Source of the DNA: Flavicella marina
GTDB taxonomy: Bacteria > Bacteroidota > Bacteroidia > Flavobacteriales > Flavobacteriaceae
Assembly (NCBI RefSeq): GCF_009193215.1
Contig: NZ_VYVA01000002.1
Coordinates: 124,001-188,000, forward strand
Direction of reading: 5' to 3'
Length of the DNA: 64,000 nt
The notes under the pieces were generated by a model. It ran no database searches, was not told the DNA's origin, and saw nothing but the letters and a program-made list of their open reading frames with translations. This document shows, in pieces, positions 6,206 to 58,894 of this stretch. Numbering within the stretch: position 1 is the first letter of the stretch; every line of letters starts with the position of its first letter. The position numbers and the translations under genes are program-made.

Positions 6206-6871
6206 GTGAGGGTATTGTCAACAAAGAAATTATCGGAAAAACAAAAATCGCAAGTCGAAGGATTTACGATTGATGAGATACCGATGATTCGTATCACTTA
6301 CGGAGATGATTTTGCTTTAGAAGAAAATATTATAAATGCAGTTTTTACGAGTGCAAATAGTGTACGCGCGGTATTCGAAAATCGTCCTGAAAACTGCAAG
6401 TGGTTTCACACTGTTTTTTGTGTAGGAAAAAAAACAAAACAACTGTTAGAAGGCTATGGCCTTACTGTAGAAGTTATTGCAAACAATGCTTTAGAATTAG
6501 CAGAAGTGTTAGCACAGCGATTTTCAGAACAAGATGAAGGTATCAAAGAAATAAGTTGGTTTTGTGGCAATTTAAGAAACAATGATTTGCCAATTATAAT
6601 GGCAGAAAATGGAGTGTTGGTAACAGAGTATTTAGTGTATAAAACAGAATTTATTCCTAAAGCTCTAGAAGTTGACTATGATGCAGTTTTGTTTTTTAGT
6701 CCATCTGGAATTAATAGTTATTTGAAAAAAAACCAAGCCAATTCAAATCCAGTTGTTTGCATAGGCAATACCACTGCTTCACAAGCAATTGAGTTTTTTG
6801 ATAATGTATATATGGCAGAAGAAACAACAGTAGAGTCTGTACTCGATAAAGTAAAAGAAATATTAGTCTAG
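6206..6871 (+). CDS. hemD: Uroporphyrinogen-III synthase
   Basis: HemD inverts ring D and cyclises hydroxymethylbilane to uroporphyrinogen III. The family is poorly conserved. The length (221 residues), the motif [13 protein letters not shown] near residue 46, the second-domain [11 protein letters not shown], and the C-terminal [12 protein letters not shown] all match HemD. The start appears to be GTG at 6206; no better ATG is present near the hemC stop. Its place between hemC and hemB supports the call strongly. Confidence 0.9.
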
Positions 6872-6876
6872 TAGAT

Positions 6877-7839
6877 ATGAATAGAACAAGACGACTGAGA
6901 AAAACAGAAGGAATCAGAAGATTGGTTAGAGAAAACAAACTAACAACAGACGATTTAATTTATCCTTTATTTATAGAGGAAGGTGAGAACATCGAAAAAG
7001 AAATAGTATCGATGCCAGGCATCAAACGTTTTTCCTTAGATCGTTTGCATACTGAGTTAGACGAGGTTGTGGAACTTGATATTCCAGCAGTTTTATTGTT
7101 TGGTATTCCTAGCGAAAAAGACGATACAGGTACCGAAACTTGGAATCATCAAGGGATTATGCAGCAAGCAATTCGCTATATTAAAAAAAACTATCCAAGT
7201 TTGTATGTGATAACAGATGTATGTTTTTGCGAATACACAAGCCACGGTCATTGTGGTGTTATTCACGACAATGATGTAGATAATGATGCAACATTAGTGA
7301 ATTTAGCGAAACAGGTTATTTCGCATGCAAAAGCGGGTGTTGATATGGTAGCACCTTCAGGTATGATGGACGGAACGATTGCAACAATTCGTGAAGCCCT
7401 CGATAATACAGGTTTTTACAACTTACCAATTATGGGTTATTCTGTAAAATATGCATCAGCATTTTATGGTCCGTTTAGAGATGCTGCAGATTCTGCGCCA
7501 ACTTTCGGAGACAGAAGAACGTATCAGATGGATCCTTCGAATAGAGACGAAGGTTTAAGAGAAGCTGCTTTTGATGATGAAGAAGGAGCAGATATATTAA
7601 TGGTAAAACCAGCATTGTCGTATTTAGATATCATTAGAGATTTGAAAAACACATATGACAGGCCAATAGCATGTTACAATGTAAGTGGAGAATATGCAAT
7701 GGTAAAAGCAGCTGCTGAAAAAGGATGGATCGATGGCGAACGCGTGATGATGGAGTCGTTATTGTCTATGAAACGAGCTGGAGCGGATATCATTATTACC
7801 TATTTTGCCAAGGAAGTTGCTAAAATTTTAAAAAACTAA
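6877..7839 (+). CDS. hemB: Delta-aminolevulinic acid dehydratase (porphobilinogen synthase)
   Basis: HemB condenses two 5-aminolevulinate molecules to porphobilinogen. The sequence has 320 residues. The zinc-type cysteine set [14 protein letters not shown] (Cys116, 118 and 126) and the two Schiff-base lysines, Lys191 in [11 protein letters not shown] and Lys244 in [10 protein letters not shown], are visible. This makes it a Zn-dependent rather than Mg-only enzyme. It starts 5 bases after the hemD stop, so translation is probably coupled. Confidence 0.97.
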
Positions 7840-7851
7840 GAAGAACGTATT

Positions 7852-9144
7852 ATGAAATTCAAACAATCAGAGAAACTATACACTAAAGGTTTAGAAAATT
7901 TAGTTGGAGCTGTAAATTCTCCTGTGAGGGCATTCGCTTCTGTAGGAGGGAACCCTTTGTTTATTGATAAGGCTAAAGGGAGCAAAATCAAAGATGTCGA
8001 TGGTAACAAATATATTGACATGGTACTATCTTATGGTCCAATGATTTTAGGGCATCGTCATAAACGAGTTGAGAAAGCTATTTCAAAAGCGCTAAAAAAA
8101 GGCTATTCGTTCGGAGCTTCAACGAATGCAGAAATAAAATTAGCGAAAATTGTATGTGATGCTTTTCCGGGAATGGATAAAGTACGTTTTGTGAATTCAG
8201 GGACGGAAGCTGTATTGAGTGCTATTCGTTTGGCAAGAGCACATACTGGAAACGATAAAATCGTAAAGTTTTCTGGTTGCTATCACGGACATATGGATGC
8301 TATGTTGGTAGCTGCAGGTTCTGGTTTGGCTACTTTAAGTTTACCAGGATCTAAAGGAGTACCTTCGCAAGCAGTTGAAAATACATTGATTGCTGAGTAT
8401 AATAATTTGGAGAGTGTTGAAAAACATTTCTCCGAACACAAAGATATCGCTGCGGTTATTTTAGAGCCAGTAACGGGTAATATGGGAGTTGTACAACCAT
8501 CTCAAGAATTTATCCACGGATTGAGAAAGTTAACAAAGGAGAACGGTGTTCTCTTGATTTGTGATGAGGTAATGACAGGTTTTCGTTCTAAATTTGGTGG
8601 AGCGCAAGAGTTGTTAGGTATCGAAGCAGATATTACTTGTTTGGGTAAAGTTATCGGTGGTGGATTTCCGGTAGGGGCTTATGGTGCTAGGAATGAAATT
8701 ATGGAAAATGTAGCGCCTTTAGGAGGGATGTATCAAGCAGGAACTTTGTCAGGAAACCCAATTGCAATGGCTGCTGGAATTTCTACATTGTCTGAATTGA
8801 AGCGTCAAAATCCATATGAGAAATTCGAAAAAATTGCAGAAAAAATTGCATCAATTTTAACGAGTGCAGCTTCTAAATATGGGGTTGACATTACTGTGAA
8901 TAAATTTGGATCGATGATCAATCCATTTTTTGCAAAAGAAGAAATTACAAATTTTACAGAGGCTCAAAAGTGCGATACAGAAAAGTTCGCAGTTTTCTTT
9001 TGGGAGATGATCAAACATGGAGTGTTTTTGCCACCATCTCAATTTGAGTCATGGTTTTTGTGTTCTGCATTGTCAAGTAAAGATTTAGAAAATTTTGAAG
9101 TAGCGGTGGATGCAGCAATGAAAAAAGTGTCAGAAATAAAATAA
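7852..9144 (+). CDS. hemL: Glutamate-1-semialdehyde 2,1-aminomutase
   Basis: HemL is a PLP enzyme that converts glutamate-1-semialdehyde to 5-aminolevulinate, working directly after HemA. The 430-residue chain has the N-terminal GAVNSPVRAF motif, NSGTEAVLSAIRLAR, the PLP aspartate in LICDEVMTGFR, and the PLP lysine Lys266 in CLGKVIGGGFPVGAYG. It follows hemB by 12 bases. The gap downstream to hemE is unusually long and holds repeat scars and a gene stump. Confidence 0.97.
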   Translation: MKFKQSEKLYTKGLENLVGAVNSPVRAFASVGGNPLFIDKAKGSKIKDVDGNKYIDMVLSYGPMILGHRHKRVEKAISKALKKGYSFGASTNAEIKLAKIVCDAFPGMDKVRFVNSGTEAVLSAIRLARAHTGNDKIVKFSGCYHGHMDAMLVAAGSGLATLSLPGSKGVPSQAVENTLIAEYNNLESVEKHFSEHKDIAAVILEPVTGNMGVVQPSQEFIHGLRKLTKENGVLLICDEVMTGFRSKFGGAQELLGIEADITCLGKVIGGGFPVGAYGARNEIMENVAPLGGMYQAGTLSGNPIAMAAGISTLSELKRQNPYEKFEKIAEKIASILTSAASKYGVDITVNKFGSMINPFFAKEEITNFTEAQKCDTEKFAVFFWEMIKHGVFLPPSQFESWFLCSALSSKDLENFEVAVDAAMKKVSEIK

Positions 9145-56834: not shown

Positions 56835-57674
56835 ATGAAAGCTATTTCTAAACCATCGAGTATTGTATCTATGTTATTTTTGTTTTTAATATTGTTGAGT
56901 TGCAATGCAACTTCGCAAGTAGAAATTGAAGATGAAACTCCAACAGAAGAGTTAGAAGATACAGTTGAAGAAACTGAAGAAGAAACTTCTGAAGAACCAG
57001 AAAATACCAATTATGATATTTCTTCTATATTATCAATATTTGATAATGTTGAAGCCATTAGTTATACGGTAACGAGTACTTCAGTGATTATAAATACTAC
57101 GAATTTACCGAACCATAAATCACCTTATTACGAAGGTACAGATTGGGAAACAGAAATGTATACAGATTATTCAGGTACAAATTCTAATTTTCGATTGAAC
57201 CCAAATAGAATTGGAGAGCAACAAATATCGATTACGATTCCGTTGTACCCTGAAGAGGCTGATAACAAAGAAGCGACTCCAATGGGACCTATGGGGATTT
57301 CTAGAAATGGAGTGGTGTTTTTCAATCAATATGCAGCCGGTTTTTCAGCCTTAGATAATGAAATAGATTCGTTCGACCAATATTTAGGTCACCCAGCTGG
57401 AACGGGTGCATACCATTATCATATAGAGCCTGTGTATCTTACAGAAACTTTTGGTGAAGATGCGCTGTTAGGGTTATTAGCGGATGGATTTCCTGTATAC
57501 GGACCACTAGAAAATGATGCAATTATCTCTACAGATGATTTAGATGATTATCATGGACATTATGGTGCTACAAAGGAATTTCCAAACGGAATTTATCACT
57601 ATCATGTTACTGCAACGGCTCCTTATATTAATGGAGATGGTTTTTATGGAACTCCAGGAAATATCTCTCGATAA
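56835..57674 (+). CDS. YHYH-domain lipoprotein
   Basis: This 279-residue lipoprotein (LLSC, Cys23) has a strongly acidic linker (residues about 30-56, rich in Glu and Thr) followed by a YHYH domain. The defining motif occurs twice, in GTGAYHYHIEPVYL and GIYHYHVTATAPY, with LLGLLADGFPVYGPLE and DDYHGHYGATKEFPNG between. YHYH proteins are extracytoplasmic proteins of uncertain function; their histidines suggest metal binding. It overlaps the next gene in a TAATG junction, and an SCO copper chaperone gene follows, so copper handling is a possible theme. Confidence 0.87.
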   Translation: MKAISKPSSIVSMLFLFLILLSCNATSQVEIEDETPTEELEDTVEETEEETSEEPENTNYDISSILSIFDNVEAISYTVTSTSVIINTTNLPNHKSPYYEGTDWETEMYTDYSGTNSNFRLNPNRIGEQQISITIPLYPEEADNKEATPMGPMGISRNGVVFFNQYAAGFSALDNEIDSFDQYLGHPAGTGAYHYHIEPVYLTETFGEDALLGLLADGFPVYGPLENDAIISTDDLDDYHGHYGATKEFPNGIYHYHVTATAPYINGDGFYGTPGNISR

Positions 57675-58219
57675 TGAAACATTTCCATTACATATTATTT
57701 TTATGTTTACTCGCAGTGTCGTGTACCAAGAATAATGTAGTAATTGATGAAAATGATGTTGGTTTATCTCAGGAGCAAGGAATTTTGTTCTTTGAAGGTA
57801 GTCCGTTTTCAGGAACTATAGAAGCTCGATTTTCTGACCATCACCTAAAGAGTCAAACTCATTACCGCTATGGAAAATTACATGGTGTTCAAAAAAAATG
57901 GTATGCAAACCGACAATTGTTCTCTGAAAGGAATTTCCAAAATGGAATAAAAGTAGGAGTGCACGTTGGTTGGTGGGCAAATAGCAACAAAAAGTATGAA
58001 TTTGAGTTTAATGATAATGGTGAGCATCATGGAATCGCAAATGAATGGTTTGAAAACGGTCAAGTTTTTAAACAATTTAATTATCAATTTGGTAGAGAAG
58101 AAGGTAGCCAGAAAATGTACAAGCCAAATGGTAATTTAAGAGCCAATTATGTTGTCGTTAATGGAGAGAGATTTGGGCTTATTGGATTAAAAAGATGTGA
58201 TGCAGTATCAACAATGTAA
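57674..58219 (+). CDS. MORN-repeat lipoprotein, YwqK-like
   Basis: This 181-residue lipoprotein (AVSC, Cys17) has several MORN/YwqK-type repeats of the form YxxGKxHGxxxxWYxNGxxxxxxxF: THYRYGKLHGVQKKWYANRQ, GIKVGVHVGWWANSNKKYEF, GEHHGIANEWFENGQVFKQF, GREEGSQKMYKPNGNLRANY. Such repeats make beta-hairpin rods on cell-surface proteins; the antitoxin label of YwqK does not fit a lipoprotein. It is translationally coupled to the YHYH gene and 3 bases before the SCO gene. Confidence 0.85.
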   Translation: MKHFHYILFLCLLAVSCTKNNVVIDENDVGLSQEQGILFFEGSPFSGTIEARFSDHHLKSQTHYRYGKLHGVQKKWYANRQLFSERNFQNGIKVGVHVGWWANSNKKYEFEFNDNGEHHGIANEWFENGQVFKQFNYQFGREEGSQKMYKPNGNLRANYVVVNGERFGLIGLKRCDAVSTM

Positions 58220-58222
58220 TAA

Positions 58223-58894
58223 ATGATGAAACAAATTATAAACATATTTCTGTTGCTTTTGATTGTTGGGTGCGCTAATGACAACAAAAAACGTAAAATA
58301 GCAGAACAAACTACTAAGGTCGTAACGTTGCCTTTTTTCAATTCGGCTGAGTTTACACCTGAATGGATTCAAAAAGGAACAAAAGCATATAAAGAAATAC
58401 ATCAAATACCTGACTTTTCATTTTTTAATCAGAATGGAGAATTGGTTACAAAGAATGATTATTTGGGTAAAATTTATGTGGCAAATTTTTTCTTTACGAG
58501 TTGTACAGGTATCTGCAGAGATTTGAGTTTAAACATGCGTTTAATTCAAGAGAAATTTAAAGGAGATGATGAAGTAAAATTATTATCACATTCTGTAACA
58601 CCAGAAATCGACTCTGTTCCTGTGTTAAAAAAGTACGCAACTGATTATAAAATTAATTCAGAACAATGGAATTTGGTTACTGGAGATAAAGAGGTCATTT
58701 ATGAATTGGCACGAACGGCTTATTTCTCAGATGAAGACTTTGTGAAAACCGAAAAGCCAAGTGAATTTATTCATACAGAAAACCTTTTATTGGTAGATAA
58801 AAAAGGAAGAATAAGAGGGGTTTATAACGGTACGATAAAATTAGCAACGAAACGTTTAATGAAGCACATTGAGTTGTTGAAGAATGAAGAGTAA
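58223..58894 (+). CDS. SCO1/SenC-family copper chaperone lipoprotein
   Basis: This 223-residue lipoprotein (IVGC, Cys17) has a thioredoxin fold. FFFTSCTGICRDLSLNMR carries the Cu-binding pair Cys94 and Cys98 (CxxxC), and PSEFIHTENLLLVDKKGR supplies the distal histidine. SCO proteins deliver copper to the CuA centre of cytochrome oxidase or act as thiol reductases. The three lipoprotein genes YHYH, MORN and SCO overlap or abut, which points to a joint function at the cell envelope. Confidence 0.93.
   Translation: MMKQIINIFLLLLIVGCANDNKKRKIAEQTTKVVTLPFFNSAEFTPEWIQKGTKAYKEIHQIPDFSFFNQNGELVTKNDYLGKIYVANFFFTSCTGICRDLSLNMRLIQEKFKGDDEVKLLSHSVTPEIDSVPVLKKYATDYKINSEQWNLVTGDKEVIYELARTAYFSDEDFVKTEKPSEFIHTENLLLVDKKGRIRGVYNGTIKLATKRLMKHIELLKNEE

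Follow-up and report, generated by a model that had tools for sequence, protein, structure and literature searches.

Why should a gene for an SCO protein, a member of the SCO1/SenC family of established cytochrome oxidase assembly factors, lie directly behind the genes for a histidine-rich YHYH protein and a MORN-like protein? The question is raised by a locus of Flavicella marina (Flavobacteriaceae, Bacteroidota) in a stretch of 64,000 nucleotides, which is referred to here as the window (assembly GCF_009193215.1, contig NZ_VYVA01000002.1, positions 124,001 to 188,000 of the forward strand); all positions below are counted from its first letter. Based on comparisons across the family and the phylum, the three genes yhyh, morn and sco almost certainly represent a conserved, co-inherited three-lipoprotein operon of Bacteroidota.

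Conservation and linkage of the three genes

All three open reading frames lie on the + strand in the order yhyh, morn, sco, at the coordinates given in a preliminary description of the window. The first (56835..57674) encodes a YHYH-domain lipoprotein of 279 amino acids (PF14240), as assigned from the reading frame, Pfam and an AlphaFold2 model; the second (57674..58219) a MORN-like beta-rod lipoprotein of 181 amino acids, for which fold matches were added to the same types of evidence; and the third (58223..58894) an SCO1/SenC lipoprotein of 223 amino acids, recognised from its reading frame, Pfam, relatives in the PDB and the alignment. The genes yhyh and morn overlap by one base at 57674 (TAATG), morn and sco are separated by three bases, and the lipobox cysteine is invariant in each alignment (C23 of YHYH in 43 rows, C17 of MORN in 45 rows, C17 of SCO in 34 rows), which confirms the initial view of three lipoproteins with overlapping or abutting genes. 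Among 125 triplets (43 from the family sample and 82 from the named sample described below, some genomes being counted twice), a crude lipobox pattern fits 121 YHYH, 118 MORN and all 125 SCO proteins. Because the lipoboxes are conserved, the prediction that all three products are lipoproteins, and hence located in the envelope as first proposed, is supported. Acidic residues at positions +2 to +5 after the lipobox cysteine average 1.5 in YHYH, compared to 0.7 in both MORN and SCO, and would fit export of YHYH to the surface through the lipoprotein export signal of Bacteroidota. The 5′ neighbour of yhyh is an open reading frame on the opposite strand, and sco is followed on the same strand by a gene for a DUF748 protein. 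This downstream gene was considered as a fourth member and rejected, since its profile matched only itself among 87 loci and the window, many of these loci being short.

For the family sample of 199 Flavobacteriaceae genomes, 54 stretches around YHYH genes were scanned with profiles built up from the three proteins encoded in the window. PF14240 matches were present in 57/199 genomes, and 43 yhyh-morn-sco triplets of constant order and strand were detected in 40 genomes, the window included. Two triplets each occur in G002, in G140 and in the genome of the window, where the second copy is located on contig C14 (locus L054). When the MORN alignment was used by itself as the query for the 199 genomes, 43 matches were obtained at E ≤ 3.5e-37, and these were exactly the 43 triplet MORN genes; after them the scores dropped sharply (next match 1e-24), and 59 genomes match at 1e-15. 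At this level (E ≤ 3.5e-37), the operon-type MORN is seen only inside triplets within the sample. One MORN match without partners was found in locus L038 (83 bits), and the long YHYH genes of the family (L004-L031) were mostly scanned in short loci only.

A second sample comprised the best 80 named loci of a search with the YHYH alignment and is accordingly biased toward close relatives of the window YHYH; its taxon labels often stem from metagenome bins and may be wrong. By title, these loci come from Flavobacteriaceae genera, Cytophagales, Saprospiraceae, Chitinophagaceae, a Mucilaginibacter bin and one Ignavibacteria bin (L140). At least one triplet was found in 76/80, adding up to 82 triplets, and the remaining four loci are cut off by the end of a contig, either within morn or right behind it. 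The standard order holds for 80/82 triplets, and two are arranged as yhyh-sco-morn (L145, with a 548-base gap after yhyh, and L167), indicating that the linkage outlasts a change in gene order.

In an even sample of 296 genomes across the phylum, which shares three strong-match genomes (G000, G001, G119) with the family sample, YHYH was found at E ≤ 1e-20 in 27 genomes, and 15 of the 16 genomes with YHYH at E ≤ 6.5e-55 carry the triplet. The 11 weaker YHYH proteins are longer and showed no MORN or SCO partners in the short stretch examined. On plasmids, YHYH was detected in 11 records, four of which were inspected: a plasmid of Persicobacter (Bacteroidota) carries the triplet, and three alphaproteobacterial YHYH genes have no SCO gene alongside, as judged from an incomplete gene table.

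The three genes also share their history. The SCO tree divides the rows into 32 and 93, and the trees of YHYH (support 0.88) and MORN (1.0) reproduce this split without error, whereas the support of 0.997 in the SCO tree is not independent, since the split was read from it. Overall, the linkage of yhyh, morn and sco is far beyond chance, and conservation of the set elsewhere, as expected in the preliminary description, was found across Bacteroidota and in one bin titled Ignavibacteria. The operon had also been called unreported, and no description of it was found in the open-licence literature, which leaves out most subscription papers; the copper inventory of the flavobacterium Bizionia argentinensis includes SCO proteins, and YHYH is absent from its main text (PMC11213822). 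A tblastn search of a phage collection gave nothing at 1e-5, and PHROGs matches were weak (best 6e-8). Identity as a defence system found no support (best PADLOC E 0.006).

Conserved residues of the YHYH, MORN and SCO proteins

The YHYH protein scores 75.4 bits against PF14240 (cut-off 25) and contains the core histidines, aspartate and YHYH motifs of this family, which is known from phage tails, diatoms and bacteria (PMC7824862, PMC7029224, PMC11992049). We found no measured activity for YHYH domains in the open-licence literature. Both histidine-rich motifs noticed at the outset are present on the + strand: the first, GH-x6-YHYH (57390..57422; residues 185-196 with H186 and Y193-H194-Y195-H196), is kept in 108/108 distinct triplet rows, and the second, GH-x11-YHYH (57558..57605; residues 241-257 with H242 and Y254-H255-Y256-H257), in 107-108/108. 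On the same strand, H94 (57114..57116, in NLPNH) is kept in 107/108 rows, and D217 (57483..57485) in 108/108 triplet and 62/62 non-triplet rows. Residue by residue, H186, H194, H196, H242 and H255 are found in 108 triplet rows and H94 and H257 in 107; D181, D217 and D237 are complete (108/108) and E198 occurs in 103/108.

For comparison, 66 non-triplet YHYH rows were retained after removal of triplet copies, with the triplet loci of the phylum sample and four cut loci set aside. Four of them bear the full signature and proved to be extra yhyh genes shortly before a triplet, and the 62 others were compared. H186, H194, H196 and D217 are kept in 61-62 of these rows, and the second motif (H242, H255, H257) is complete in 26/62 and not aligned in 27, while H94 together with Y98 occurs in only 2/62 and E198 in 3/62. 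According to this comparison, the core site is family-wide, and the mark of the triplet proteins is NHxxxY plus a glutamate after the first YHYH. The second motif was thus rejected as a hallmark of triplets, as 26/62 non-triplet proteins have it. Extra yhyh genes lie directly or shortly before a triplet in loci L077, L046, L152, L157 and L206; those of the first four bear the full triplet-type residue signature.

The AlphaFold2 model of the YHYH protein has a mean predicted local distance difference test score (pLDDT) of 88.9, with means of 87-98 over ten-residue blocks from residue 61 on. It matches viral YHYH proteins (best E 6e-11; seven matches at 1e-3), and the sequence has no relative in the PDB at E ≤ 1. 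The strongly acidic linker, initially taken as consistent with metal binding, is indeed present in the window protein (47% D/E over the 30 residues after the cysteine). However, it is an extreme case and not a typical one: the window protein ranks third of 121 proteins with a mean of 25%, and because linker length and sequence vary, the linker was rejected as a metal site.

The MORN protein reaches 28.9 bits against MORN_2 (PF07661), just below the cut-off of 29.6, and is therefore labelled MORN-like. Its model (mean pLDDT 93.8) presents a row of beta strands, a rod of beta-hairpin repeats, and matches solved MORN1 proteins and SET7/9 (TM-scores about 0.3-0.4) as well as beta-sheet proteins such as OspA. 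Apart from the lipobox cysteine, C175 (58196..58198, + strand), which lies in the C-terminal consensus FGLIGLKKC, is the sole invariant cysteine (45 rows).

The SCO protein exceeds the cut-off of PF02630 (80.8 versus 22.8 bits), is related to solved Sco1/YpmQ proteins in the PDB (best E 3.8e-20) and also scores above the AhpC/TSA cut-off. Its CxxxC motif (C94-TGI-C98, 58502..58516) and the conserved histidine that follows (H184, 58772..58774), both encoded on the + strand, are invariant in 34 rows, and CxxxC plus the distal histidine occur in 125/125 triplet SCO proteins. In SCO proteins, these residues are the copper ligands. An SCO match is present in 197/199 family genomes, of which 40 have the triplet; triplet genomes contain 3-7 SCO genes (median 4) and the others 0-6 (median 2). 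The window genome has four, two of them in triplets and two elsewhere. In a quick tree, a branch (SH-aLRT, an approximate likelihood ratio test, 94) separates the operon SCOs from 20 non-operon SCOs sampled in 13 genomes; the latter fall into two clades of 11 and 9. As these 20 represent a minor share of all SCO genes across the 199 genomes, further SCO types may exist. With the operon SCO grouping apart from these 20, a role in cytochrome oxidase assembly is not indicated. In the same quick tree, the operon SCO of L161 (Cellulophaga sp. BC115SP) groups with that of the Cytophagales bin L157, and the organism label may be wrong.

A sigma factor cassette and other neighbours in relatives

Upstream of 54/125 triplets, on the same strand and within 6.5 kb, we detected a gene for a Spy/CnrX-like protein, together with an extracytoplasmic function (ECF) sigma factor gene in 50 of these cases. 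Split by sample, this applies to 35/82 named triplets (34 with the sigma gene) and 19/43 triplets of the family sample (16 with the sigma gene). Among 21 loci that were picked by hand from titles and tree position as lying outside Flavobacteriaceae, 11 have the Spy/CnrX-like gene upstream. In the inspected loci, its order is ECF sigma gene, anti-sigma-like gene, Spy/CpxP/CnrX-like gene. The sigma factor was identified by Pfam, whereas the anti-sigma-like protein (about 105 amino acids, one hydrophobic stretch, no clear Pfam family) was named from place and size alone. The Spy/CnrX-like protein is anchored and about 155-240 amino acids long; its profile finds Spy (3e-6), NccX (6e-4) and, weakly, CnrX (0.02-0.35) in the PDB. 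At E ≤ 0.1, 20/29 members touch Metal_resist and 20/29 touch LTXXQ, the member shown remaining below the curated Metal_resist cut-off. By profile similarity, the upstream protein is assigned to the Spy/CpxP/CnrX/NccX superfamily.

Across the 199 family genomes, the Spy/CnrX-like gene is present in 28 with one match each at 1e-5, and 21 of the 28 are triplet genomes (Fisher p 6e-12); in 23/28, a YHYH gene is located no more than about 6 kb away. Three genomes (G050, G082, G169) have the cassette beside a long YHYH gene that has neither MORN nor SCO as a partner, and three more (G084, G134, G188; loci L247-L249) have it without YHYH, MORN or SCO in the 8 kb examined.

The interval between cassette and yhyh is often filled by genes for EF-hand, CotH or sulfatase proteins or by additional copies of yhyh. 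In L091, L093, L094, L106, L107, L114, L120 and L133, a CotH-kinase gene (PF08757) separates the cassette from the YHYH genes, and genes for small EF-hand proteins recur in the same 5′ region of other Flavobacteriaceae loci, which suggests a larger cluster. A sulfatase lipoprotein gene (PF00884) is found directly before the triplet or between two triplets in L069, L093, L094, L114, L130, L131 and L132. On the other side, sco is followed by a gene for a lipoprotein of the di-haem cytochrome c peroxidase (CCP)/MauG type in L043 (7865-9211) and also in L065. Among the best 80 named loci, 20 carry in their flanks an oppositely oriented gene for an Nramp-like metal transporter, for example L102 at 6651-7871 (-). 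A Pfam scan covered 20 neighbour proteins that represent recurrent families, the other families being judged by eye; the scanned proteins included one Nramp-like protein, one ABC ATPase and one di-haem CCP/MauG peroxidase, and no oxidase subunit, resistance-nodulation-division (RND) pump or P-type pump.

Possible functions and comparison with known systems

What could a dedicated SCO protein do for its two partners? The YHYH protein is most likely a surface or periplasmic metal-dependent enzyme, and we tentatively favour, as possible though short of probable, that the SCO protein supplies it with a metal, probably copper, or with thiol reduction, with the MORN protein as a scaffold. In such a scheme, the operon SCO would load the YHYH metal site, or keep it reduced, rather than serve cytochrome oxidase, and the metal would most likely be copper, held by the conserved YHYH histidines. 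The MORN rod may bridge YHYH and SCO on the membrane, where its invariant C-terminal cysteine could offer a thiol to the SCO CxxxC motif or to the metal. Where the cassette is present, the Spy/CnrX-like protein would sense a signal in the envelope, either a metal or misfolded protein, and thereby free the sigma factor and switch the operon on. A metallation role is suggested by the constant presence of an extra SCO beside a histidine-rich protein, comparable to Streptomyces, where Sco is required under copper limitation to mature the non-respiratory copper enzyme GlxA (PMC4736821). The preliminary description had spoken of an envelope copper-handling or redox module. The copper or redox part of this description draws on what is known of the SCO family and on the CxxxC motif with distal histidine, present in all 125 triplet SCOs; a copper mechanism is plausible, with copper binding and function inferred.

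Several observations weigh against this interpretation. YHYH proteins outside triplets share the core histidines and in many cases the second motif, so that the histidines alone point to neither SCO nor copper, and the YHYH site has been predicted in print to be a zinc site of three histidines and one aspartate in a tail-associated hydrolase (PMC7824862). The YHYH model has no solved match (best PDB E 0.44; 0/240 chains at Z ≥ 2). As for SCO, its higher count in triplet genomes is not separate evidence, because the triplet SCOs themselves raise it; G368 has yhyh and morn without an adjacent sco in the 9 kb examined; and YHYH without SCO in long Bacteroidota forms and, as far as the incomplete gene table shows, on the three alphaproteobacterial plasmids means that SCO is dispensable for the family at large. 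The cassette is often kilobases away, lying within 400 bases of yhyh in 17/35 named and 1/19 family-sample cases; it was not found upstream of 71/125 triplets (three of these with less than 3 kb of upstream sequence), and 5/28 cassette genomes lack a nearby YHYH gene. Upstream of the window operon there is no cassette, and no sensor-like gene was found in that genome at E ≤ 1, which is weak evidence. Finally, the CnrX metal ligand Met123 (PMC7689651) is conserved in 0/29 upstream proteins, which have V, I, L or F instead, while the column of His119 holds a histidine in 20/29. The upstream protein was therefore rejected as a CnrX/NccX metal sensor proper, and the signal need not be a metal.

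A serious rival, which we consider somewhat unlikely, is that YHYH acts as a zinc-dependent envelope hydrolase, for example on peptidoglycan or polysaccharide, with SCO as a thiol-disulfide or peroxide-protective partner for the MORN cysteine or for surface stress and without any role of copper. The zinc site and hydrolase role predicted for YHYH domains in phage tails (PMC7824862) speak for it, as do the viral YHYH proteins sharing the predicted fold, the retention of H186, H194, H196 and D217 in 61-62/62 non-triplet rows, the invariant MORN cysteine and the AhpC/TSA score of SCO. It would leave unexplained, however, why H94 with Y98 (2/62) and E198 (3/62) are so rare outside triplets, and why in 125/125 cases an SCO that has CxxxC and histidine fills the partner role instead of an ordinary thioredoxin-like protein. 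These same residues would find a place if YHYH were a copper enzyme, its fold being new among solved structures, in which the two GH...YHYH half-motifs, together with H94, Y98 and E198, formed paired three-histidine sites of a type-3-like kind, loaded by SCO, docked by MORN and regulated by the cassette in relatives. We regard this specific version as quite improbable; it is given lower weight because the second motif is also present in 26/62 non-triplet YHYH proteins.

The operon could also serve as an envelope response to metal stress or misfolding, in which YHYH would sequester excess copper or another metal, SCO would detoxify or reduce it, and the upstream cassette would sense it. The relationship of the upstream protein to Spy, NccX and more weakly CnrX, its contact with Metal_resist in 20/29 members at E ≤ 0.1, the cassette order in inspected loci and the Nramp-like gene on the other strand in 20/80 named loci are consistent with such a response. 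Nevertheless, we consider it unlikely, given that the 20 Pfam-scanned neighbours contain no efflux pump or P-type ATPase (one ABC ATPase subunit being present), the CnrX ligand Met123 is absent and a search of the window genome did not find the cassette. An accessory unit for assembly of cytochrome c oxidase, with SCO metallating CuA or CuB and YHYH and MORN as helpers, would agree with the established task of SCO1/SenC proteins, and solved relatives of the operon SCO include proteins so named. This option is disfavoured and appears highly unlikely: SCO matches are found in 197/199 genomes and the triplet in only 40, the operon SCO stands apart from the 20 sampled non-operon SCOs in the quick tree, and no oxidase subunit was among the 20 scanned neighbour proteins.

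The strict linkage to SCO and MORN provides a genetic handle on the YHYH metal and its loading, and YHYH becomes a possible non-respiratory client of SCO. With their characteristic residues and their exclusive MORN partner, the YHYH proteins of triplets make the idea directly testable.

Compared to known systems, the cassette of the relatives resembles CnrYXH of Cupriavidus (PMC7689651): in both, an ECF sigma factor, a small anti-sigma-like protein and a Spy/CnrX-like protein line up before effector genes. In the relatives, however, the genes behind it encode YHYH, MORN and SCO and not an RND pump, Met123 is not conserved, and neither the window nor the rest of its genome yielded the cassette. 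The YHYH protein belongs to the same Pfam family, PF14240, as proteins of phage tails, giant viruses and diatoms (PMC7824862, PMC7029224, PMC11992049), and its predicted fold matches that of viral YHYH proteins. In contrast to PF14240 proteins elsewhere, it is a single-domain lipoprotein tied to MORN and SCO, and triplet YHYH proteins differ from those outside triplets in H94 with Y98 and in E198, which are rare in the latter. With SCO1/SenC copper chaperones, the operon SCO has in common that it is a lipoprotein with CxxxC and a histidine. The closest parallel to the function proposed here may be the Sco-DtpA-GlxA pathway of Streptomyces, in which SCO likewise has an extracytoplasmic, non-respiratory client (PMC4736821). 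In the operon described here, the proposed client would be the YHYH protein where Streptomyces has a radical copper oxidase, and the MORN lipoprotein comes in as a third partner.

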